A DNA stretch of 64,000 nucleotides. Source: Candidatus Saccharimonadota bacterium. GTDB lineage: Bacteria > Patescibacteriota > Saccharimonadia > Saccharimonadales > Saccharimonadaceae. Position 1 is the first letter of the stretch; every line of letters starts with the position of its first letter. A model generated the notes under the pieces. It was given only the letters and a program-made list of their open reading frames with translations, was not told where the DNA came from and searched no databases. Positions 15,573 through 34,948 of the stretch are shown piece by piece. A program made the translations under genes and the position numbers. The stretch spans positions 62,001 to 126,000 of the forward strand of contig JAFXKT010000001.1 in assembly GCA_017531585.1 (NCBI GenBank), written 5' to 3'.

Positions 15573-18500
15573 CTAGTGCCCGATAACTTGTTGCAACGGC
15601 TTGAAGGTGTCCGCGTCGGATTCGCCAGCACGTTGAGTACCGCGGTTATCGTAGGCGGCACGAATAATCGCCTGGTCAGCCGTAGAAGCGCGTCTGTAGT
15701 AATTCGCAAGATTTTCAACTTCACCGCCAGCATAACCCGCCAACGCGCCACCACTAAAGCCTTCGCTATTAACAACCCTATGCATAACGTCGTCCTGATA
15801 ATTTTGATAATCTACAGCTCGTGCTTGCTCCTCTGGAGTCCCATTAGGGTCGCCCCTATCCGTAACAACCTGCCTTCCTGCAATCATATCTTGATACTTA
15901 ATATAATCCGACGGGCTCTTCGCAAGCATACCATTACCAGCGTGCTTGAGGCGCGCACGCGCGACTGCGGCCATAGTCTCTTGAGAAGCGCCCCTCTCGT
16001 TCATAAAACGCATAATCGTTTCGTCAATTGGGCCTTTCTTGTTACCATGCGTCCTACTCGCAGATGCGCTACGTGCAATGGCCTCAATCGTAGCACGTCC
16101 TTCGGCAGAATTTATATCAGTAACACGATTCTCCAAAGCATGCCAAACCGCATTCTCTTCATCCGTAACATGGTTGGCATCCAAATCAACACCCTCATCC
16201 TCAAGCGCCTGCATTTCATCTTTAACATTCTGCTCAAACATTGCCTGTTCTGGATGATCTGCCATATATTGAGCATCGCGACGTTCAGCCCTATCCTTCG
16301 AAGCAGCCTCTTCGGCAGCCATTCTTCTAGACGAGCTACGCGCTCTAGTTAGACGACCAAAGGCAGTTGCGTTGCCCTGCCTATCAACGCCAGCATTCAT
16401 GCGATTTGCCCTCGCCTCGGCACCATGTTGCATTCTCTTCGCAAAGTCCGAACCCTTGAAACCGCCAGTCATACGATTAGTCAGTCTTCTTGCAGCACCC
16501 TGAACCAAAGCGCCTAGCTTACCAGTAGAATTGATAATCATCTTTGGCAAGAAGAATATCGGAGCAACGTTGGCAGCAATAGCAATGACATATACTAGCG
16601 GATTAAATCCTAGACCAGCAAAGATACCAGAGTTTATTTCTTTTGCTCCACCCATTACAGTGACAATAATTTTCGCAGCAAAGTCACCACCGCTCACGAC
16701 CAGACTACATAACGGATATGCAATCAATAATCCGCTCACGAGCTTTGTCCATTTCCTAAAGGTTGCATTACCGGCCGGAACAAGATAGAACAGCAATGCG
16801 ATAGGTGCTGTAGTAGACAGAACAATAATAAGAGCCTGCCTCAAAATAAATATCAAGAACATCATAAGTACGGCAATAGCAACAATAATTATGGCCGAAA
16901 GAGCAAGAACAACAATAGATTGACCGCTCTTCAAGAAGCCGATAATAGAGAAGAAACCGGCTATGGCGACCAGTATGGAAGTACCCCCTTCAAACAACTC
17001 TCTTCCTGGCTTACCTCTAAAGAGGTCGCTAGGTGGAGGGGTGGCCGTAATGCCGTTTTTTACCGATTCAAATATATTTGTTATTGCTGAGCCAAATATA
17101 TTAGCAAGATCAACTGCCGCCCTAAACAATATGAACGAAAGATTTATAAGAAGCACACCAATAACAATGCGTGGCAACATCTTCTTAATGCCATAATTAT
17201 CGATTCCGATACCAGATATCTGCGACAAGATAATAATCAGAAGGAGGATTACTAGTACACCATTAGCGATAGTCCTTGCAGTATTCCAGGCATCGTAGAG
17301 ACCAGATTCTTTCTTAAAAACAGTCGGATCAAGATTCAAAAAGCCAGTTACATAAGTATAAATATTACCAACCTGCTCGCTAATCTCTTTTGTTGCTGCG
17401 CAGGCAAACCAGCTCCAACCGCCACTATTATCCGTGCACTTTGGTTCAGGCTCATCGCTATCATACAAATCTAGCGTAGAAAGTTCTGGCATAATAAATG
17501 CACTACTTACGCCATCCGTATCTATAAATAGACACTTATCATACTCATCCCCTTCTTTCCAGTCTGCCGGACATATAGTTAAGGCAATGTAATTCTCTGA
17601 AGCATTAGGATTACGGCCGATGGCCGAATTTATAGCACCGCCATTCTCGGAGTTTTTAATCCTAACATTTACCTTTTTATACTGCAGATCACCGTCCGAT
17701 ACTGGAGACATGTCTTCATCTTTGATTTCGTGAATTTTCGTAAGTGGATAGTCAACATACTCGCGAGTAGACGAAGTAGATATAAACGAATGCCCCTGAC
17801 CTAGTTCCCCGATTTTGGCAGGATAATCTACTAGCTGAATATTTTGCGGATCGATTGGCATACCACCAGCCAAGGCACTTACGCCGACCGTTATTACAAT
17901 ATCCTTATCATCCATCTCGATTTGCGTACTAGGAATCGCAAAAACTACATCTCTACCAGATTTAATCTTTGACGGGTCATAAATCGAACAAACAACACGG
18001 TCTGTACCTTTTAGTGTCTCTTCGTAATTATCGCCGTCATTACCCTCGAGCCCACCTTCAAAAAAGCTAGAGCAGGATCCCGGGCCACCCGTACCATTCT
18101 TTCCTGTTAGTTTATCTGCATTTTTCACCCGATAGAGCTTACTATTTTTATCTTGAATGTAACCCATAATATCGCTGCAACTGTATAAAACCTTGCCACG
18201 ATGAACCGTCATTCCGTCCTCACCATTACCCCCAAGAGTGCCAGTATTAAAGCCGACATACTGGTAATTATAGTTACTACCCGTTCCGTAGCCGTCAAGC
18301 AATTTCGTTTCACTATCCCTGTCATCAAGCCATGCGCCAACAGCCTCGAAGTGTTTTACTGAGCCGTCTTCGTGACACATCGTAAGCATGGTACTATATC
18401 GCTCAAACGAATAATCATTTTTAAGTGCCGAAGTTTCTAGATGATTCTCGTTCCAATAATTATCCCCTAAGGAAGCTCCCAAAAATGGATCATGATCATT

Positions 18501-26356: not shown

Positions 26357-29029
26357 TTAGCGGAATCTGTTCTCTCTTGCGCGGACTAGGCCCACCGAAG
26401 CGCGAATTGCGCCGCGCACACGCTCATCGCCAGTAAACGAAGCTTGCGTGACATTCGTGCGCCAACCAGACAAAGTATCCTCAACCGTAGCAGCATTAAT
26501 AGTCGAGCCCGCGCGTGTAGCCGCATTTCTAAAGGCCTGCTCGGCAGCTTCCATACCGACAGTATCGCCATTGCGCGCATTCCTCTCGTATTCTGCCTGA
26601 TAGTAATCAACTTCGTTTGTAAACCTGCCAGAACTAATCGCAGAAGCACTGCCGCTCTCAATTACACCAGCATTAGCAGTCACCGCATTGCTGCGCTGAG
26701 TCGTAAAGTTAGTAATATCTTGACGCGCCTGAGCATTAATATGCTGAGACAACTCAGGATTGCTCTGAGCTTCTTCCATCATCCTCTGTAGGTTAGCCGC
26801 CATAGCACCACCCAAGTTTGCGCCCGCCTCGGTAGCCATGCGATGCGAATCGCGGTCATCCATCTTGAGGTAATCTTGACCAGACAATGTGCTAAGAAGA
26901 TCATCGCTGAGGCGAGTGTAATTAATATTGCCATGGTTACCATTCTTAACATCCAAGAGATGCTGTGCAATATATGGAGACTCTTTGGTCATATCGTAAA
27001 GCTCTTCCTGAGAGAAAGCATTTGCCATTGCATCTGCAGTTTCGTCGTCATAGTTGTGCGTCTGCATGTTATCATGCAAAACCGTACGACCATCACTAGT
27101 CGCAGACAGCTTTCTCGTACAGGCCGCAACCCTTGCGTGATTGCCGCTCGCCTGTGCGCGCTCTAGCTCTTCGCCAAGCTCGTCAGCAGAATAATTCATC
27201 GTTTCAAGGCGCTTCTCTTCAAGACCAACCTGTTTCTGGAACTGCTCATTTCTAAAGACATCAGGGTTCTGAGCGATATCATTACGCCTATTGCGTTTAT
27301 TAAGAACGGCTTGCGCGCCAGGAAGATACATATTCTGACTCGCTCTTCTGCCGCGTCGCTGAACTAGCTGACCATTGCGAATTCTCACGCCAGCTAGACG
27401 TAAAGCTTTTCTATCTGCCTGATCCTGCATACGATTCGACATAAAGGTACTGTTACTAACGACACGATTCGCACTTCTACTTGTACTTCTCTGAATCTTA
27501 CTGATCATATTCTGGATTGCGCCAAGAGAGGCCGTAATTGTCTTTGGAATAAAGTAATATGGAACAACACAAATAATTAGAGCCGCCAAATCCGCCACCG
27601 TAGTTAGCAGACGATTAGATGCATCCGTGTCCCAAACTTCGTGCAAAATTTGCGCCGCCATTGCGCCACCATAAACCATAATACTGGCGATAGGATAGGC
27701 GATTAGAACACCCTTCAATAAATCAAACCACTTCTTAAATATTGACTGAGTGTTTGGCAAAATATTACAAATAAACGCAATCGGAGCAACCGTTACGAGA
27801 ATGATCGCTAAAGCCTGACGCAAACCGAGAGAGATAATCAAAATCAAGACGCCGCCCAAGATGCCAAGGAAGCCCATAATAAGCGGCGGCATCAAGGCTG
27901 GAATCATAATAACAGCAAAAATCGTCGCCGCAATCAAGCCAACAGCAAGCACAATAGCGCCCGCCGAAACACTCAAATCTGTTAGAGCAACATCAAAGAA
28001 GCCACCGATATTTGTACCGACAATATTCGAAAGATCAACTGCTGCCTGGCAGATAATATAGGACATATTTACTAGAATGGCCGAAATAATTACACGCGGC
28101 AACATTTTCTTAATGCCATAGTTTGTAATACCAAAGCCAGAAATTTGAGAGAAAATCATCGCAATAATGACTACGACAAGCAAGCCATTAGCTATATTTC
28201 TAAACCATGACCACGCATTAAAAACAGAAGACCCGCCACCATTCCTATTTAGGAGCTCTGGCTCTAGTCGCAGCATATCCGCAATCACATCTTCGTAGAG
28301 ACTCGTAATAGCATCGCCAAGGCCAGTCAAAAGCGGACAGGTAATCCAACCGATTAGACCATTCGTAGATCTACAAGTATCTGCAATGTCTTCTTCATCC
28401 TCTTTTTCTACCTCTTCGTAGCCGACCTTTTCGTCTGCAACAGTAGGTAGCATTTCTGGACAGCCATCAATATCATCGGCAGCAGGCATACCATTTTGTT
28501 CGATGACTCGGTTGTTATAATTCTTGTTATTATATTCCCTACAATACGCCGTCGAAGCATCCGCCTCACGAATACAAATATTAAAGCTAAACTCGTAAAA
28601 AGCTGGGTACTGGTCTTCTAGAGGGATAGGACCATAAATATTGTTGCCGTCTTTATCTATGCCCTGATTAACATTTGTATTTGAAATAGAGCCAGAAGTT
28701 TTGGAGCCCCAAAATTTATAGGTGCCGTCCTGTTGCTTAATGACTCTATAAACCTGGTATTTTGCTGTAACGTTTTCGTCGTGGCTAGAATCGGTAATCT
28801 TGATATCGTCTACGGTATATTCATGGGCAGCCGCGCTCTTATTGGGGCCGCCAATAACCCCCGAGACGTGGATCGAGCTATTCGGCTTGACGTTCTTTTC
28901 GTAATTTACGCCAAAGAGATAATCGTGCGTATCTACACAAGTAGTTGTTGGGTCAGCAAAAACATTCTGCCCAAACACAACAGAGGCAAGAAGAATAAAT
29001 CCAAATCTTACAAGCCATTTTTTAGTCAT
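26357..29029 (-). CDS. P4: VirB6/TrbL-like polytopic protein
   Basis: 890 residues: signal peptide (NVFA), an exterior region that includes an acidic Glu/Asp run before the motif C-x(6)-GWITCPLL (about 228), multi-helix core (about 285-510) with FSQISGFGI, YGIKKMLPR and LVNMSYIICQAAVDLSNIVG, and a tail with Arg-rich linker, GRTVLHDNM and ARNGDTVGMEAAEQAFRNAA. The core is closest to P3 by eye. The start overlaps S3 by eight bases with the same ATGACTAA junction as S2/P2, so coupling is strongly implied. As with the other P proteins the substrate and the ATPase partner are not in the window. Confidence 0.76.
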   Translation of the reverse strand: MTKKWLVRFGFILLASVVFGQNVFADPTTTCVDTHDYLFGVNYEKNVKPNSSIHVSGVIGGPNKSAAAHEYTVDDIKITDSSHDENVTAKYQVYRVIKQQDGTYKFWGSKTSGSISNTNVNQGIDKDGNNIYGPIPLEDQYPAFYEFSFNICIREADASTAYCREYNNKNYNNRVIEQNGMPAADDIDGCPEMLPTVADEKVGYEEVEKEDEEDIADTCRSTNGLIGWITCPLLTGLGDAITSLYEDVIADMLRLEPELLNRNGGGSSVFNAWSWFRNIANGLLVVVIIAMIFSQISGFGITNYGIKKMLPRVIISAILVNMSYIICQAAVDLSNIVGTNIGGFFDVALTDLSVSAGAIVLAVGLIAATIFAVIMIPALMPPLIMGFLGILGGVLILIISLGLRQALAIILVTVAPIAFICNILPNTQSIFKKWFDLLKGVLIAYPIASIMVYGGAMAAQILHEVWDTDASNRLLTTVADLAALIICVVPYYFIPKTITASLGAIQNMISKIQRSTSRSANRVVSNSTFMSNRMQDQADRKALRLAGVRIRNGQLVQRRGRRASQNMYLPGAQAVLNKRNRRNDIAQNPDVFRNEQFQKQVGLEEKRLETMNYSADELGEELERAQASGNHARVAACTRKLSATSDGRTVLHDNMQTHNYDDETADAMANAFSQEELYDMTKESPYIAQHLLDVKNGNHGNINYTRLSDDLLSTLSGQDYLKMDDRDSHRMATEAGANLGGAMAANLQRMMEEAQSNPELSQHINAQARQDITNFTTQRSNAVTANAGVIESGSASAISSGRFTNEVDYYQAEYERNARNGDTVGMEAAEQAFRNAATRAGSTINAATVEDTLSGWRTNVTQASFTGDERVRGAIRASVGLVRARENRFR

Positions 29030-30230
29030 TGCTAGAGCTAATTTCAGCCTTTCGTGCTTTTAGTAGCTCTGCAAATTCACTCATATCCGCATCTTTACAA
29101 ACGATAGTAACGTCGCCCGCCTCAGTATCATTTGCATCAGCAGAGCTCATTTGGAAATTATCATACAAGTTTGTTTCGAGAGCATTTTCTATTTGTTCGC
29201 GGTCAACTTCGAGTGTTGGCGCAATGCCTTCATAAGCGTCCGTAATACGATAGACAGCTTTGCCGTCGCCACCTGCGCGTGGAGTCTTAGTTACGGACCA
29301 AATATATGCAGTGTTGTTCTCGATATAGATCGAGCTTGGCCTATATTTCAAATCATAACGGTTTACAATAGAGTTTTCTTTGGCCTTCGCAGAGCTAAAG
29401 TCATAGTTACTAATAAAGACATTCTTCCAACCATCGTCAGCAGCAATCGTCCAAGCCTTCTCGGCAAAGATATCATACTCACCTTCGGCGTAATCCGAAC
29501 CGTTATGCGACGATTTGTTGTAAGTTGCAGTACAGTTTAGAGCCTGTCTATTCTTGATCTTATTATTGTATTCTTCGTAGCTCACTTTGCCGTCGCTTTC
29601 TGCAGGCTTACTTGGATTCTGTGGCTCGTTTTTCTTATTCAAGACATAGAACGCAAAAATACCACCGCCAATCAAGACAATGACGCCAAGAGCAATCAAA
29701 ATAATTAACGGCAAAGACAAAGCTTTCTTACGCTCAACTTCTGGTTCTGGAGCAAAGAAATTCTGAACTGGAGCCGGTTCTGGAGATGGAGCCGGCTTAA
29801 ACTCAGGCGCTGGCGGAGGAAGTTCTTCCTCGACAGGTTCTGGTTCTGGAGCTGGAGCTGGCATTGGTTCCGGTTCAGGCGTAACCGGTTCTTCGACAAC
29901 TGGAGCAACAGGCACTGGTTCTGGTTCTGGAGTTGGTGGCAAATCTGGCTCGCCAGAAATAAACTGAAAGTTATTATCATCTTCACCATGACCAAAAGAA
30001 GTTGCAGAGCCCGCAACAGTAACCTCTGGTTCATAGTTTGTATTTGTAACACTAAATGCATTCGCACGATCATGAGAAGACGTAGCATACGCACGGTTAT
30101 CTACCTGGCTTCTAAGCTCTTCTAGCTGCGCATCTTTGCTAGCAGGAAGCGCATTATTTGTACCGTCTGCAAAAGAATTGTCCTTGGCGGAATTGTTGTT
30201 GTTTTGAGCCGCCTGATTGCTCTTATCCAT
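29022..30230 (-). CDS. S3: single-pass membrane partner of P4 with Pro/Glu-rich cytoplasmic stalk
   Basis: 402 residues. Residues 1-90 are polar; 93-165 are a Pro/Glu-rich stalk with repeated P-E-P-E-P units; a membrane helix spans about 171-196; the extracellular part carries Cys in LNCTATYNK and VTIVCKDAD plus DDGWKNVFISNY and T-A-Y-I-W-S, the S-family pattern. Pro/Glu-rich stalks before a single helix occur in envelope-spanning proteins such as TonB and VirB10 and would let the cytoplasmic end reach other components; that comparison is only architectural. The start has a -10 box six bases upstream (leaderless prediction), and the end is coupled to P4. Confidence 0.7.
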   Translation of the reverse strand: MDKSNQAAQNNNNSAKDNSFADGTNNALPASKDAQLEELRSQVDNRAYATSSHDRANAFSVTNTNYEPEVTVAGSATSFGHGEDDNNFQFISGEPDLPPTPEPEPVPVAPVVEEPVTPEPEPMPAPAPEPEPVEEELPPPAPEFKPAPSPEPAPVQNFFAPEPEVERKKALSLPLIILIALGVIVLIGGGIFAFYVLNKKNEPQNPSKPAESDGKVSYEEYNNKIKNRQALNCTATYNKSSHNGSDYAEGEYDIFAEKAWTIAADDGWKNVFISNYDFSSAKAKENSIVNRYDLKYRPSSIYIENNTAYIWSVTKTPRAGGDGKAVYRITDAYEGIAPTLEVDREQIENALETNLYDNFQMSSADANDTEAGDVTIVCKDADMSEFAELLKARKAEISSSND

Positions 30231-30236
30231 ATTTTT

Positions 30237-30242
30237 ATTTTA
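30237..30242 (-). promoter_or_regulatory. S3 extended -10 box, leaderless spacing
   Basis: TGGTAAAAT on the minus strand, six bases from the ATG at 30230; no ribosome site in between. Confidence 0.5.
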
Positions 30243-30270
30243 CCACAAAGTTTATGCTTATTTATTTTGT

Positions 30271-32562
30271 TTACGCTAGCCACGAACCTGTTGATGGGCC
30301 ACTTAGGTTCTCGGAGGCAAATTGCTCGAGCATTCTTCTCTTTTCTACCGACAGCTCACTAGCGTTACTACTACTAAGCAAATCTCGAACTGATTGCTGT
30401 ACATGTGCTGCCGCGTGCGTACCCGAGTTCTGGCGTATCTGATTGAGATAATTATCTACGGCACGGGTATCCATCGTCTTGAAGCTTGCACCCGTAGTTC
30501 TGTTAACCTGATCGTTAGTGAGCTGACGCGTAGATAGCCTACCAGCGGCGGCGACACCATTAGTCGTAACATCTCTTGCCCAGTCAGACATAACCATATC
30601 TTCATTCCTGAGCTGTTCACGACCGCGATTCAACTCGCCAGCAATATTCGTAAGAGCCGTCTCTGCTTGTGCGCCGCCCGTAGTTTCGAGCTGACCAATT
30701 CTATTCGCAAGCGCATCACGACCATTATCTCCTTGCTGCCTGAGTCTGCGCGTGATTGCAGCATCCATTGCCGGATCATTAGTAGTGCCAAGCATATTTG
30801 CAAGCTGCTCAGATGTCATGCTGCCCTGTCTATCTAGGCGAGTATTTGCCTCAGAAATAAGCTGTTCATCAAGTGTATTACGCCTGAAACGGGCATCCCT
30901 ATAATTATTCATATCCCCGATCCGAGCACCCAATCCCTGAGCATCGGCCAAATGATCATTCATGTGCCTTGTTCTAAAATGTCGGCGCATCACGACCGTA
31001 CCATCTCTTCGGATATGTGTACCACTCGCGCGTTCGACCTTGCGCTTTTGTGTCTGGCGCCTCATCCTATCCGCCATACGACTGTTGCCTACAGCGTTCT
31101 GAGCTCCACCAGTTACGCGCTGTCTCATTCTCAAAATTGCGCCATCAATAGCAGCGACCGAGCTAGTCGTAATCTTTGGCAAGAAACACGGCGGAACAAC
31201 AACCACCGCTATGCCAATGAGGCCCGAGACGAAGTTATCCTCGCCCATCGACTTTACAACTAGGCGCCCAGCAAACGAACCACCATAAACCAAAAATGCC
31301 GCAATTGGATAAGTAAATATTAGCCCCTTAAATAGTCCGAACCATTTCTTGTATAGTTTCTCGGTACCAGGCAACACCGCACAGGCAATCGCTATCGGCG
31401 AAATGATTACCAAGCCCGTCATTAATGCTTGGCGCACAACCAGCATTATAAAAGTGAAGAAGATAGTTACGCCGGCACCTATGAGTGCAAAGAGGATTGG
31501 CAACAAGAATGCAGGCCCAAAGAAGAAGGCAGCAATAATAACACCGACCAAAACTACAATAAGCGCTAATAATCCCCCCGTGCCATTCACGGCGCTTGAA
31601 CCCTCAGCCGAAAGAACCACCGATTGATTTAGCGTCTTAAAGATGCCGCCAACACCACTACCAAGAATGTTACTGATATCTACAGCTCCCTGACAGACAA
31701 GATACGAGAGGTTCACGATTATAATCATAACAACAGCACGCGGAAGCGCCTTCTTGATACCATATTGTTGAATCTGCCAACCAGAAATTTGCGAGAAAAT
31801 AATCAACAAAAGATAGACAATAAACAGAGCATTGGCGATATTACGAATATCCGACCAAACCTTGAATGTTACCTTTCCTGCATTAGAAGACTGCTGCAAA
31901 GCTTGTGGCGGATAAATAAGCCATTCTTCTATAAGATGTTCGTAGAGGTACGTAATTAGATTAGACAAATCATCCGCGAGCGGACAGGCAAACCAGCCCA
32001 TCTCTGGATTATCTCCGTAGCAAGTCGACTGTTCAGTCATGAAGTTTTCATACTCACCACCAGCAGCCATAGCATCTGCAGAGTTAGCCGTAGACGCTTC
32101 AGTCCCATCACCATTTGCCTCGTGTATACACTGCACAACCTCACTAATCGAGTGGCCCGAGCCTTGCATTATGCCTGCCTGCATCTGCAAACAATAGTCT
32201 TCGGTAGGTACGGCCGTAGTAGTTGTCGTAGTACTATCACTCGGAACAGATGGATCTCGCCCCGCTGGCTCTGTCTCCGGCTCAGTCGTCGGTTCGGTCG
32301 TCGGCTCGGTAGTAGTTGTGGTAGTTGTAGTTGTCGTAGTAGACTCAGTCGGCTCGGTTGTAGTAGTCGTAGTGTTTTGCTGATTCTGCTGAGCCCAGAT
32401 TTCTTCGCAAGTCACACCCCTTTCTACTTGGTCAACCGTCATTGTACAGGTAGTCTCTGCATAAGTATCTTGCCCAAAAAGATTAAGGACGCCCGCAAAC
32501 AAAAAGGCCGCAAAAACTGCACATACAATCCCCCACCTTCTTATATGAGTCTTTTGCGACAT
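30271..32562 (-). CDS. P5: VirB6/TrbL-like polytopic protein with Thr-rich exterior tract
   Basis: 763 residues, the shortest paralog and the first of the array in transcription order. After the signal peptide (residues to about 31) comes a low-complexity Thr/Glu/Pro tract (about 65-105) that may be a flexible, possibly glycosylated linker. GWFACPL is at about 189, the multi-helix core (about 240-474) has FSQISGWQI, YGIKKALPR and IVNLSYLVCQGAVDISNILG, and the tail is shorter, with GRDALANRI but without the NGD-x3-ME motif. It has its own palindromic promoter and no paired S gene. Twelve bases separate the -10 from the start, and no ribosome site is evident. Confidence 0.75.
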   Translation of the reverse strand: MSQKTHIRRWGIVCAVFAAFLFAGVLNLFGQDTYAETTCTMTVDQVERGVTCEEIWAQQNQQNTTTTTTEPTESTTTTTTTTTTTEPTTEPTTEPETEPAGRDPSVPSDSTTTTTTAVPTEDYCLQMQAGIMQGSGHSISEVVQCIHEANGDGTEASTANSADAMAAGGEYENFMTEQSTCYGDNPEMGWFACPLADDLSNLITYLYEHLIEEWLIYPPQALQQSSNAGKVTFKVWSDIRNIANALFIVYLLLIIFSQISGWQIQQYGIKKALPRAVVMIIIVNLSYLVCQGAVDISNILGSGVGGIFKTLNQSVVLSAEGSSAVNGTGGLLALIVVLVGVIIAAFFFGPAFLLPILFALIGAGVTIFFTFIMLVVRQALMTGLVIISPIAIACAVLPGTEKLYKKWFGLFKGLIFTYPIAAFLVYGGSFAGRLVVKSMGEDNFVSGLIGIAVVVVPPCFLPKITTSSVAAIDGAILRMRQRVTGGAQNAVGNSRMADRMRRQTQKRKVERASGTHIRRDGTVVMRRHFRTRHMNDHLADAQGLGARIGDMNNYRDARFRRNTLDEQLISEANTRLDRQGSMTSEQLANMLGTTNDPAMDAAITRRLRQQGDNGRDALANRIGQLETTGGAQAETALTNIAGELNRGREQLRNEDMVMSDWARDVTTNGVAAAGRLSTRQLTNDQVNRTTGASFKTMDTRAVDNYLNQIRQNSGTHAAAHVQQSVRDLLSSSNASELSVEKRRMLEQFASENLSGPSTGSWLA

Positions 32563-32596: not shown

Positions 32597-32609
32597 ATTT
32601 TTATCGCAC

Positions 32610-32640
32610 AAAAAACCTCCCGAAAAATTCGAGAGGCTTT
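32610..32640 (-). terminator. Terminator after the structured RNA and LPKTG gene
   Basis: On the minus strand, CCTC-x-CGAA/TTCG-x-GAGG arms with an AAA/TTT loop, followed by six T. Confidence 0.8.
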
Positions 32641-32645
32641 TTGTG

Positions 32646-32790
32646 GGACAAGCCGGATCAAGACTAATCGCTTGATCTAAGAAGGACAGCTTGTGCGACT
32701 AGCGGAGCCGAAGCCCCGCCAGTCGTTTCCCAGCAATCCCCGACCAATCTAGTCATCAGCTTCTGGGGAAGCTCTATACTAGGCGGTCAA
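32646..32790 (-). ncRNA. Candidate structured RNA or 3' UTR element
   Basis: About 145 bases between the LPKTG stop codon and its terminator fold into three strong helices on the minus strand. (1) 742-753 with 778-788 (GACC/GGTC and CTAGT/ACTAG, offsets from 32000) enclosing the hairpin AGCTTC/GAAGCT. (2) A 13-bp stem at 32696-32725 closed by a C(UUCG)G tetraloop, which with its G-U pairs is better formed on this strand. (3) ACAAGC/GCTTGT at 32648-32653 and 32689-32694 enclosing GATCAAG/CTTGATC. It matches no family I recognise (not SRP, 6S, tmRNA or RNase P). It could be a 3'-derived small RNA. Confidence 0.55.
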
Positions 32791-32791
32791 G

Positions 32792-34948
32792 TTATTTCTT
32801 GCGGCTAATGATATAGCCAGCAGCTGCTGCGCTTACGGATGCGATAGCAATCGTTGCGCCAAGAACATCTGCGTTACCAGTCTTAGGAAGTTCGGTTGGA
32901 GTATCCTCACAAACCTGGCCTTCGACTGTGACGTCAGCATCATCGGTCTTTTCCGTGTTGTTGTCGTCATTGTATTTACCCTTAGCGACGTTTGTGAGTT
33001 TAGAAGAATCACAATTGTCTGCATAGGATTCGTCAACAGTGGCATAGAAGTAAACAGTTACTTCAGTACCAGCATCAACATGATCAATCTTTAGACCATC
33101 GGCAATGATTTCATCACCCATAGTCTTACCATCGGTATATTCAGAGCTATAAACGATAGTAGAACCGTTTACATAGTTCAAACCAGCTGGCAATGCGTCG
33201 CTGATTACAACATTGTTAAGAACAGTGTTACCAGTGTTCTTGAACTGAATGCGGTAACGAACAGTTTCGCCTGCCTTAGCGGTAACATTTTCGCTCCAAG
33301 TATCAGAACCCTTGATCTGAACCATCTTGTCGATAGTGTAACCAGGGTGTTCCTCAGTACAGACCTTACCATCAATCGTGACGGTTGCAATGTCTGTCTT
33401 AATCTTGCTGTCGTCGTTACCGTATTTACCAGTAACAGTGTTGATCAAGTCAACCTTTTCACAGCTATCAGCATATACGCCAGAGACTGTAGCGTTGAAG
33501 TAAACACCAATAGTCTGACCGGCCTTAACGGTACCGATGTTCATACCATCACCGAAGAAGCCTTCGCCAGTAGTTAGCTGGTCGTTGTTGCTATTTTCGG
33601 TAATTGGACCGTAAACAACTTCGCTTACGTTTTCAACACCTTCTGGAAGCTGATCTTTAACGATTACGTCATTAAGATCGGTTTCACCAGTGTTGAAGAA
33701 GCGGATGCGGTAATAAATCTTTTCACCTGGCTTAGCCTTAACGGTTTCAGACCATTCCGTATCGTTTTCAAGACGAACCATCTTGTCGATTTCGAAACTT
33801 TCAGTACAGACCTTACCATCGATGTAAACATCGGCAGTATCAGTCTTAACATCAGTTACAGTACCATCAGTCTTATAAGCCTTGGCTTCGACGACGTTAC
33901 GACGTGGAGCTGGATTACATTCGTCGCCTAGTTCGCTATTAACAGTAACATTGAAGTAAACAATAGCTTCACCGTTTGGTTCGTAATCACCGATATTTAG
34001 ACCTTCTGAAGAGAAGAGAGTATCTGGATACTGAACACCATCAGTGTGCTGATCATTTACAACATAGGTTGTACCTGGGACGTAAGTAACGCCTTCAGGA
34101 AGCGTATCACGTAGGCTGACGTCGTTTAGTCTAACATCTCCAGTGTTGGTGAACTTAAGCTTGTAAACAAGCGTATCACCAGCTTTTGCATTAGTGCTAT
34201 CAGCGAAATCGCCTTCAGCACCCTTTACCTTAACATCTTTTACGATTTCATAGTTTGGATGTTCAGCGAACTGAGCTTTAACATGGAAAGTAACCCAACC
34301 AGAATAGCCGACACAGCCAGGAATGATACCATTCATAGTTTCATAACCAAGCTGAGCACCGTCTTCTGTGAAGAGCTCAGTATTAAGACCAAACTTATCT
34401 ACGTTATTAGTATATTTTGCAGTACCTTCAACGTATGCTAGGTTAAATTCTTCACCGTTAGCAGAGATAAAGGTTGTTTCGTCCCAAACTTCTTTTGGAC
34501 TTGCGTTATCAGCGCGAATTGTACCCTGAACGGAAATGGATGTACCAGTTGTCGTTGGAAGGTTAACAATTGCCCTTACGTTTTCAGCCTGAAGATTTAG
34601 GTTAGAAGCAGCGTTGTTGTGTACATACATACGAACAACATATTCTTTACCTGGTTCAACCATAGTTTCATCAGACCAGTTGTTTTGATTTGCATCACCA
34701 GTATATTCAGATGCGATTACGAAGTAACGCTCATCACAAGCAGCGCCACGACCTTCACAGTCTGCAATATTGGTGCTTTGAATCAAAGCGGGGTTATTAG
34801 TGATAGAGTTGAATGTAACCTTGTCCGCAGGTTGTTCCATCGTGTAAGTATCACGACTTGGACCATAGGCCAAAGCTACGAGAGCGCCAGCGCCAGCGAC
34901 TGCAGCAACAGCTGCAACACCGATACTAGCTTTAGTGATTTTCTTCAT
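32792..34948 (-). CDS. LPKTG wall-anchored surface protein with DUF11 repeats
   Basis: 718 residues: an N-terminal hydrophobic signal (about 8-28), an N-terminal beta domain, three DUF11-type repeats of about 150 residues each containing the pattern K-x-x-G-x-x-F-x-N-T-G-x-x-x-L-x-x-V and a closing D-G-K-V-C-T-E, then TELPKTGNADVLG, a hydrophobic helix and SRKK. This is a complete class A-type sortase signal, in contrast to the pilin-like genes. It is probably a major wall or stalk protein at the cell surface. No sortase gene is in the window. AAAGGAA lies upstream of the ATG, and TGATATAGT is a possible -10. Confidence 0.82.
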   Translation of the reverse strand: MKKITKASIGVAAVAAVAGAGALVALAYGPSRDTYTMEQPADKVTFNSITNNPALIQSTNIADCEGRGAACDERYFVIASEYTGDANQNNWSDETMVEPGKEYVVRMYVHNNAASNLNLQAENVRAIVNLPTTTGTSISVQGTIRADNASPKEVWDETTFISANGEEFNLAYVEGTAKYTNNVDKFGLNTELFTEDGAQLGYETMNGIIPGCVGYSGWVTFHVKAQFAEHPNYEIVKDVKVKGAEGDFADSTNAKAGDTLVYKLKFTNTGDVRLNDVSLRDTLPEGVTYVPGTTYVVNDQHTDGVQYPDTLFSSEGLNIGDYEPNGEAIVYFNVTVNSELGDECNPAPRRNVVEAKAYKTDGTVTDVKTDTADVYIDGKVCTESFEIDKMVRLENDTEWSETVKAKPGEKIYYRIRFFNTGETDLNDVIVKDQLPEGVENVSEVVYGPITENSNNDQLTTGEGFFGDGMNIGTVKAGQTIGVYFNATVSGVYADSCEKVDLINTVTGKYGNDDSKIKTDIATVTIDGKVCTEEHPGYTIDKMVQIKGSDTWSENVTAKAGETVRYRIQFKNTGNTVLNNVVISDALPAGLNYVNGSTIVYSSEYTDGKTMGDEIIADGLKIDHVDAGTEVTVYFYATVDESYADNCDSSKLTNVAKGKYNDDNNTEKTDDADVTVEGQVCEDTPTELPKTGNADVLGATIAIASVSAAAAGYIISRKK

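Follow-up and report, generated by a model that had tools for sequence, protein, structure and literature searches.

The window, that is the whole stretch of 64,000 nucleotides that was analysed, comes from a genome of 1.01 Mb and carries on its minus strand the gene of a secreted surface protein (Table 1), the reading frame of which (34948-32792) contains DUF11-type repeats (Pfam DUF11, E 4.9e-24) and an LPKTG sorting signal. The stop codon of this gene, a TAA, lies at 32794-32792, and the structured stretch that begins 1 nt past it on the minus strand forms the 3' untranslated region of the LPKTG mRNA. The relatives of this genome in the named collection are Candidatus Saccharibacteria, several of them from gut or rumen samples of sheep, goat, deer, buffalo and horse. 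Further downstream, the minus-strand ORFs of the interval 26357-32562 (763 and 402 aa) have the look of type IV secretion genes, as has a related multi-spanning protein of 890 aa (26357-29029, minus strand); a Pfam scan of the 763 aa and 402 aa ORFs returned no match.

A structured RNA directly past the stop codon had been proposed in the initial annotation, and the folding energies bear this out: the minus strand from 32791 to 32605 (187 nt) folds at -91.6 kcal/mol against a mean of -57.7 for shuffled sequences (z -7.7, equalled by 0 of 200 shuffles) and at -66.1 kcal/mol (z -4.8) when the terminator is left off, while the plus strand of the stretch is less stable (-52.3 kcal/mol, z -3.1). 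The 13-pair UUCG stem and the long terminator hairpin belonging to the element are both present in the minus-strand fold, and so are all three helical domains described before, but the conserved unit consists of the 5' part and the terminator only; the interval first assigned to the element, 32646-32790, was 1 nt short at the conserved 5' end and omitted the terminator (about 32646-32608). As had been stated, no standard RNA is resembled, since nothing in Rfam (Rfam 15) reaches the gathering threshold; with E up to 10, the element gives only sub-threshold matches to unrelated sRNA and miRNA families. A promoter search beside the element in the window found no promoter-like site above chance. 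A hammerhead (CUGAUGA and GAAAC are both present in the window copy) was rejected, CUGAUGA being not conserved and Rfam giving no match, and so was a riboswitch, as the conserved core lies outside the terminator stem and the gene past the terminator appears from the sequence to lie on the opposite strand in several relatives (L007, L010-L015).

Table 1. The LPKTG gene, the parts of the RNA element that follows it and the partner non-coding RNA (ncRNA); positions are those of the window unless a contig is named.
Feature	Position	Strand	Description and basis
LPKTG gene	32792..34948	-	718 aa, secreted surface protein (ORF list and Pfam)
Whole 3'UTR RNA element with terminator	32608..32791	-	Fold z -7.7; 98-100% identical in G011/G035
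Putative docking block 1, UUGACCGCC	32782..32790	-	Complements ncRNA GGCGGUCAA; exact in 35/45 genus genomes; trans-covariation
Putative docking block 2, GUAUAGAG	32772..32779	-	Complements ncRNA CUCUAUAC (hairpin loop and 5' strand)
5' domain	32739..32791	-	Helix CUUGACCG/UGGUCGGG sequesters the docking site in cis (predicted structure)
Further helices of the 5' domain	inside 32739..32791	-	Inner helix CUAGU/ACUAG; hairpin AGCUUC/GAAGCU
CUGGGAAAC	32725..32733	-	GGGAAAC, nearly invariant in the genus; able to pair with the CCC of the first-hairpin loop (pseudoknot)
13-pair stem with UUCG loop	32696..32725	-	Lineage-specific; only in G000, G011, G035
Third helical domain	32647..32693	-	Lineage-specific (fold and relatives)
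Intrinsic terminator hairpin, U run at its end	32608..32646	-	Equivalent after the element in nearly all relatives
Partner ncRNA	G000:C4 about 444,945-445,500 (L218 1255-1810, L306)		Single copy, structured (predicted)

Within the genus, the whole element is common to three genomes only (G000, G011 and G035, 98-100% identical there); in the remaining members, the first about 34 nt are up to 97% identical and the sequence is divergent beyond. The UUCG and third hairpins are thus a local expansion specific to this lineage, and of the conservation in relatives that had been named as a check of the annotation, the 5' part is kept, while helices 2 and 3 occur only in the near-identical genomes (the UUCG stem has one compensatory change, A-U to G-C, in L004). 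In the genus, the stop codon is followed after 0-5 nt by UUGACCGCC and, 5-9 nt further, by UAGAG, after which come a small hairpin whose loop contains CCC, a stretch of variable sequence, (G)ACGGGAAAC and the terminator; the window copy has UUGACCGCC, a short spacer, UAUAGAG and the small hairpin. The CCC loop could pair with a downstream GGG, and the pseudoknot suggested at first, between CCCAG of the first hairpin loop region and the downstream CUGGG, can indeed be drawn; the relatives keep the CCC loop and GGGAAAC, which are nearly invariant and therefore conserved in sequence, yet their pairing is unsupported by covariation.

The exact pattern TTGACCGCCN{3,8}TAGAGYTT is found in 35 of the 45 genomes of the genus as a single copy each (one genome has two matches, both at contig edges), and the reversed control pattern gives 0 matches in the same 45 genomes; divergent copies (e.g., those of G013, G006 and G016) are picked up by a model of the element, R1. 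A pattern scan of 84,980 species gave 38 matches, confined to Saccharibacteria but for four in named other phyla, which are regarded as chance, the downstream GACGGG being absent. Matches on viral contigs, without the downstream GGGAAAC, are likewise attributed to chance, the plasmid collection held no match to the element, and R1 matches in other genera were rejected, as they lie inside or among unrelated ORFs and not after LPxTG stop codons.

Elsewhere in the family, LPxTG homologues have a related sequence, GAGNCUGACCGCUC, placed 0 to about 10 nt past the stop codon, and the family pattern GAGNYTGACCGCTC is present in 65 of 121 genomes, at about one copy each. Among the 61 distinct post-stop copies, 58 follow LPxTG-like proteins and one each an LPRSG protein, EF-Tu (in G424, the host gene matching Pfam GTP_EFTU_D3 with E 2e-37) and another protein. 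Standalone copies, with no adjoining LPxTG gene, occur in G395 (L182 1500) and G442 (L239 534), between a tRNA-like gene and a small KKKRNK-type gene, which is the usual downstream neighbour, and a promoter-like sequence can be read in front of them. This neighbour, a conserved small basic protein (MAKQKKKRNKxYTG...), stands 3' of the element in many loci of other genera (L179, L198). In cis, the 5' strand GAGNCUGA of these genera forms a helix with a UCAGNCUC-type strand further downstream, and the two covary, matched strands giving -7.3 and swapped strands -6.5 kcal/mol (0 of 20,000 permutations, P < 1e-4).

Recurrent weak R1 matches in about 15 genomes first drew attention to a second locus, an ORF-poor region about 0.6-1 kb downstream of the tmRNA, to which an ncRNA of about 0.6 kb is assigned, present once per genome and carrying the complement of the docking sequence of the element. 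A sigma70-like promoter, TTGACA-17-TATAGT, precedes the ncRNA on the complementary strand (G000:C4 about 444,909-444,937), a terminator lies 3' of it in L326, and past about C4:445,500, where the conserved RNA-like sequence ends, there is a membrane-protein gene with a -10 box of its own. The core hairpin, AUGCCUCUC-UAUAC-GAGAGGCGGUCAAU, is the bipartite complement of UUGACCGCC...GUAUAGAG. The model R2 detects the ncRNA once in 43 of the 45 genus genomes, with E values from 1e-22 to 1e-51, and also in other genera; a further model, R3, added nine credible ncRNAs from additional genera, followed by the same operon, corresponding to 9 of the 40 other-genus genomes with the motif, and its match in G310, inside an ORF, was discarded. 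At this locus the Rfam threshold is reached only by the neighbouring tmRNA and tRNA; RNase P, SRP and 6S RNA were rejected as identities of the ncRNA for want of an Rfam match, and a short ORF in its hairpin (AAGGACUAUGCC...CAAUAA) is not kept outside the genus. At another place in the same genome (G000:C2 about 17,300-17,750; L202 1150-1600), two tandem small-RNA-like units with terminators share GUACGCGUYGACCGCUACG and a closing pair CUAGC...GCUAG, and they contain YGACCGC too.

The strongest signal among the relatives is covariation in trans with this second non-coding RNA, and not the cis-structure: the conserved first 19 bases of the element co-vary with the ncRNA site in 51 genome pairs that represent about ten genera. 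Partner sequences were predicted from the 3'UTR variants before the ncRNAs were read. As predicted, the UTR variant GUUUAGAG is accompanied by CUCUAAAC in the ncRNA of G065, and CAUGUAGAG by CUCUACAUG in that of G031; the four AUAUAGAG genomes carry CUCUAUAU, which had already been seen ahead of the predictions, and G013 is altered on both sides (UUUGACCGCUUCU together with AGAAGCGGUCAAA). Docking block 2 thus covaries within the genus (GUUUAGAG/CUCUAAAC, AUGUAGAG/CUCUACAU and AUAUAGAG/CUCUAUAU). For g27, g29 and g53, the ncRNAs of which contain GAAGCGGUCAA or GGAGCGGUCAA, the LPxTG 3'UTRs fetched later have UUGACCGCUUC or UUGACCGCUC, as required. GGUCAG was forecast for the CUGACC genera, and the R3 ncRNAs agree in G189, G304, G424, G157, G152 and G407 (duplexes of 13, 12, 11, 14, 12 and 11 bp, respectively, that of G424, with the UTR behind tuf, including one G-U pair); in G347, G230 and G363 GGUCA is followed by a bulge or mismatch, and G125, G230 and G363 have a C-A mismatch at position -1. 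The prediction CUCUAUCG failed in G034, G026, G008 and G033, where the ncRNA has CUCUAUAC and pairing requires a bulge, and so did CUCUAUAG for the AAUCUAUAGAG genomes, in which 7 bp remain; both AAUCGAUAGAG and AAUCUAUAGAG genomes retain CUCUAUAC, the 4-bp loop block being down to 2-3 pairs. A full 14-nt complement in the ncRNA was dropped as a requirement, the pairing spanning 9-14 nt.

The permutation statistics, in which P values are optimistic because shared descent inflates significance, give a duplex energy of -29.9 kcal/mol with the own partner and of -25.8 with swapped partners over 21 representatives (0 of 20,000 permutations), 32 of 20,000 permutations (P 0.0016) with one genome per genus (n=10), and 0 of 20,000 for 25 distinct pairs within the genus. 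Among the pair columns, the UGACCGC core is invariant, and covariation is found at columns -1 (U-A, C-G; P 0.0086), 7 (U-A, C-G, U-G; P 0.0008) and 8 (C-G, U-A; P below 0.0002); in the second block, 125 of 136 positions are paired in the genus, against 117.9 (sd 0.87) when partners are swapped. The independent changes in G013, G031 and G065 are firmer evidence than these P values, and the trans-covariation as a whole is strong evidence that the element and the ncRNA pair with each other. When the cis-folds of both pieces are included, in cofold energies that take in neither pseudoknots nor co-transcriptional folding, binding to the own partner averages -7.2 against -5.65 kcal/mol for swapped partners (P 0.0007); for several representatives among the 21 (e.g., G157, G407 and G368), the own partner is bound less well than partners are on average. 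In the genome of the window, the expanded cis-fold equals the duplex in stability; the cofold gives a net binding of 0.0 kcal/mol and predicts that the cis-fold prevails, contrary to the first expectation that pairing would win in every genome. The expanded 5' domain is predicted to sequester the docking site, so that the tail of this lineage appears locked.

The LPKTG 3'UTR probably is, or yields, a small trans-acting RNA that pairs with the ncRNA and is restrained by its own folding in cis. The conserved post-stop sequence (UUGACCGCC and UAUAGAG here, GAGNCUGACCGCUC in other genera) would pair with the 3' strand, the flank and, in this genus, the loop of the hairpin AUGCCUCUC-UAUAC-GAGAGGCGGUCAA; pairing would start at the GGUCA flank and then proceed by invasion of the ncRNA hairpin, provided that both RNAs are expressed and meet. 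Within the mRNA tail the docking sequence has a cis partner too, so that the tail may act as a locked strand that needs opening. It would act on the ncRNA, as a decoy or as an activator, and this direction is favoured over regulation of the surface protein because the site persists behind tuf and where no LPxTG gene adjoins. A possible arrangement, put forward tentatively, is a dedicated two-RNA system of Saccharibacteria in which the cis-locked tail of an abundant mRNA (for the surface protein or EF-Tu) opens and switches the large structured ncRNA through strand invasion, which ncRNA would thereby read out the expression of the mRNA. The reverse, with the ncRNA as regulator binding past the stop codon and acting on the LPxTG mRNA through its stability, termination or translation, would account for the presence of LPxTG-like ORFs at 0 to about 10 nt before 58 of the 61 distinct post-stop copies, and the duplex would overlap the footprint that a terminating ribosome is known to have; it is considered unlikely, as the RNA site is kept without an LPxTG gene, behind EF-Tu in G424 and standalone in G395 and G442 beside the usual neighbour.

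Explanations that dispense with the RNA pair fare less well. The strong fold, the conserved hairpin, the conserved GGGAAAC and the covariation in cis would all be compatible with a purely structural 3'UTR element, be it a stability hairpin or pseudoknot before the terminator or a protein-binding site, but it is the trans partner, not cis pairing in the minimal forms, that accounts for the bases conserved most strongly (UUGACCGCC, GAGNCUGACCGCUC), and the variants co-vary with a distant locus, which makes this improbable. Co-evolving sites would be expected as well if a DNA-binding protein recognised both loci, with covariation arising without RNA pairing; such a protein would, however, be intolerant of a block spacing that in the genus ranges from 5 to 9 nt (to UAGAG) in the 3'UTR and is constant in the ncRNA, and both sites lie within hairpins whose cis partners change too, the orientation is always sense-antisense and the duplex of G424 is preserved by a G-U pair, so that very little likelihood is left to it. 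A stimulator of stop-codon readthrough or frameshifting, which a pseudoknot-like element shortly past a stop codon might bring to mind, is refuted by the sequence, as the varying stop spacing (TAAG, TAAAG) shifts the downstream frame and a stop is met at once (e.g., TAA AGT TGA).

To our knowledge, hardly anything is known of RNA regulation in the Candidate Phyla Radiation, and a literature search found no small-RNA work on Saccharibacteria; the present data offer a concrete candidate RNA pair, made up of the conserved tail of a surface-protein mRNA and a large ncRNA that Rfam lacks, in which base pairs covary across about ten genera. That a 3'UTR tail pairs with a further regulatory RNA is a mechanism of a known kind (3'UTR-derived sRNA, sponge); the novelty lies in the two RNA families, in the large partner, in the cis-lock and in the lineage. 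Like the 3'UTR-derived sRNAs of bacteria, the element is a conserved mRNA 3' end, lies within the 3'UTR, ends at the gene's own terminator and has a conserved antisense seed, the predicted pairing of which with a trans target is supported by covariation; those sRNAs are usually studied against many mRNA targets, whereas a single dedicated partner, itself a large non-coding RNA, is proposed here, and a strand resembling that partner is predicted to lock the tail in cis. The contact, predicted to involve a hairpin loop and the adjacent single strand, recalls antisense pairs such as RNAI/RNAII, from which the present pair differs in its distant, trans-encoded loci, its partial complementarity and its having no part in plasmid replication. 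As in the RNA sponges and anti-sRNAs of enterobacteria, a piece of an abundant transcript would titrate a regulatory RNA by base pairing; unlike there, the partner is not a short sRNA but an RNA of about 0.6 kb with a conserved fold of its own, and the pair belongs to a family of Saccharibacteria.
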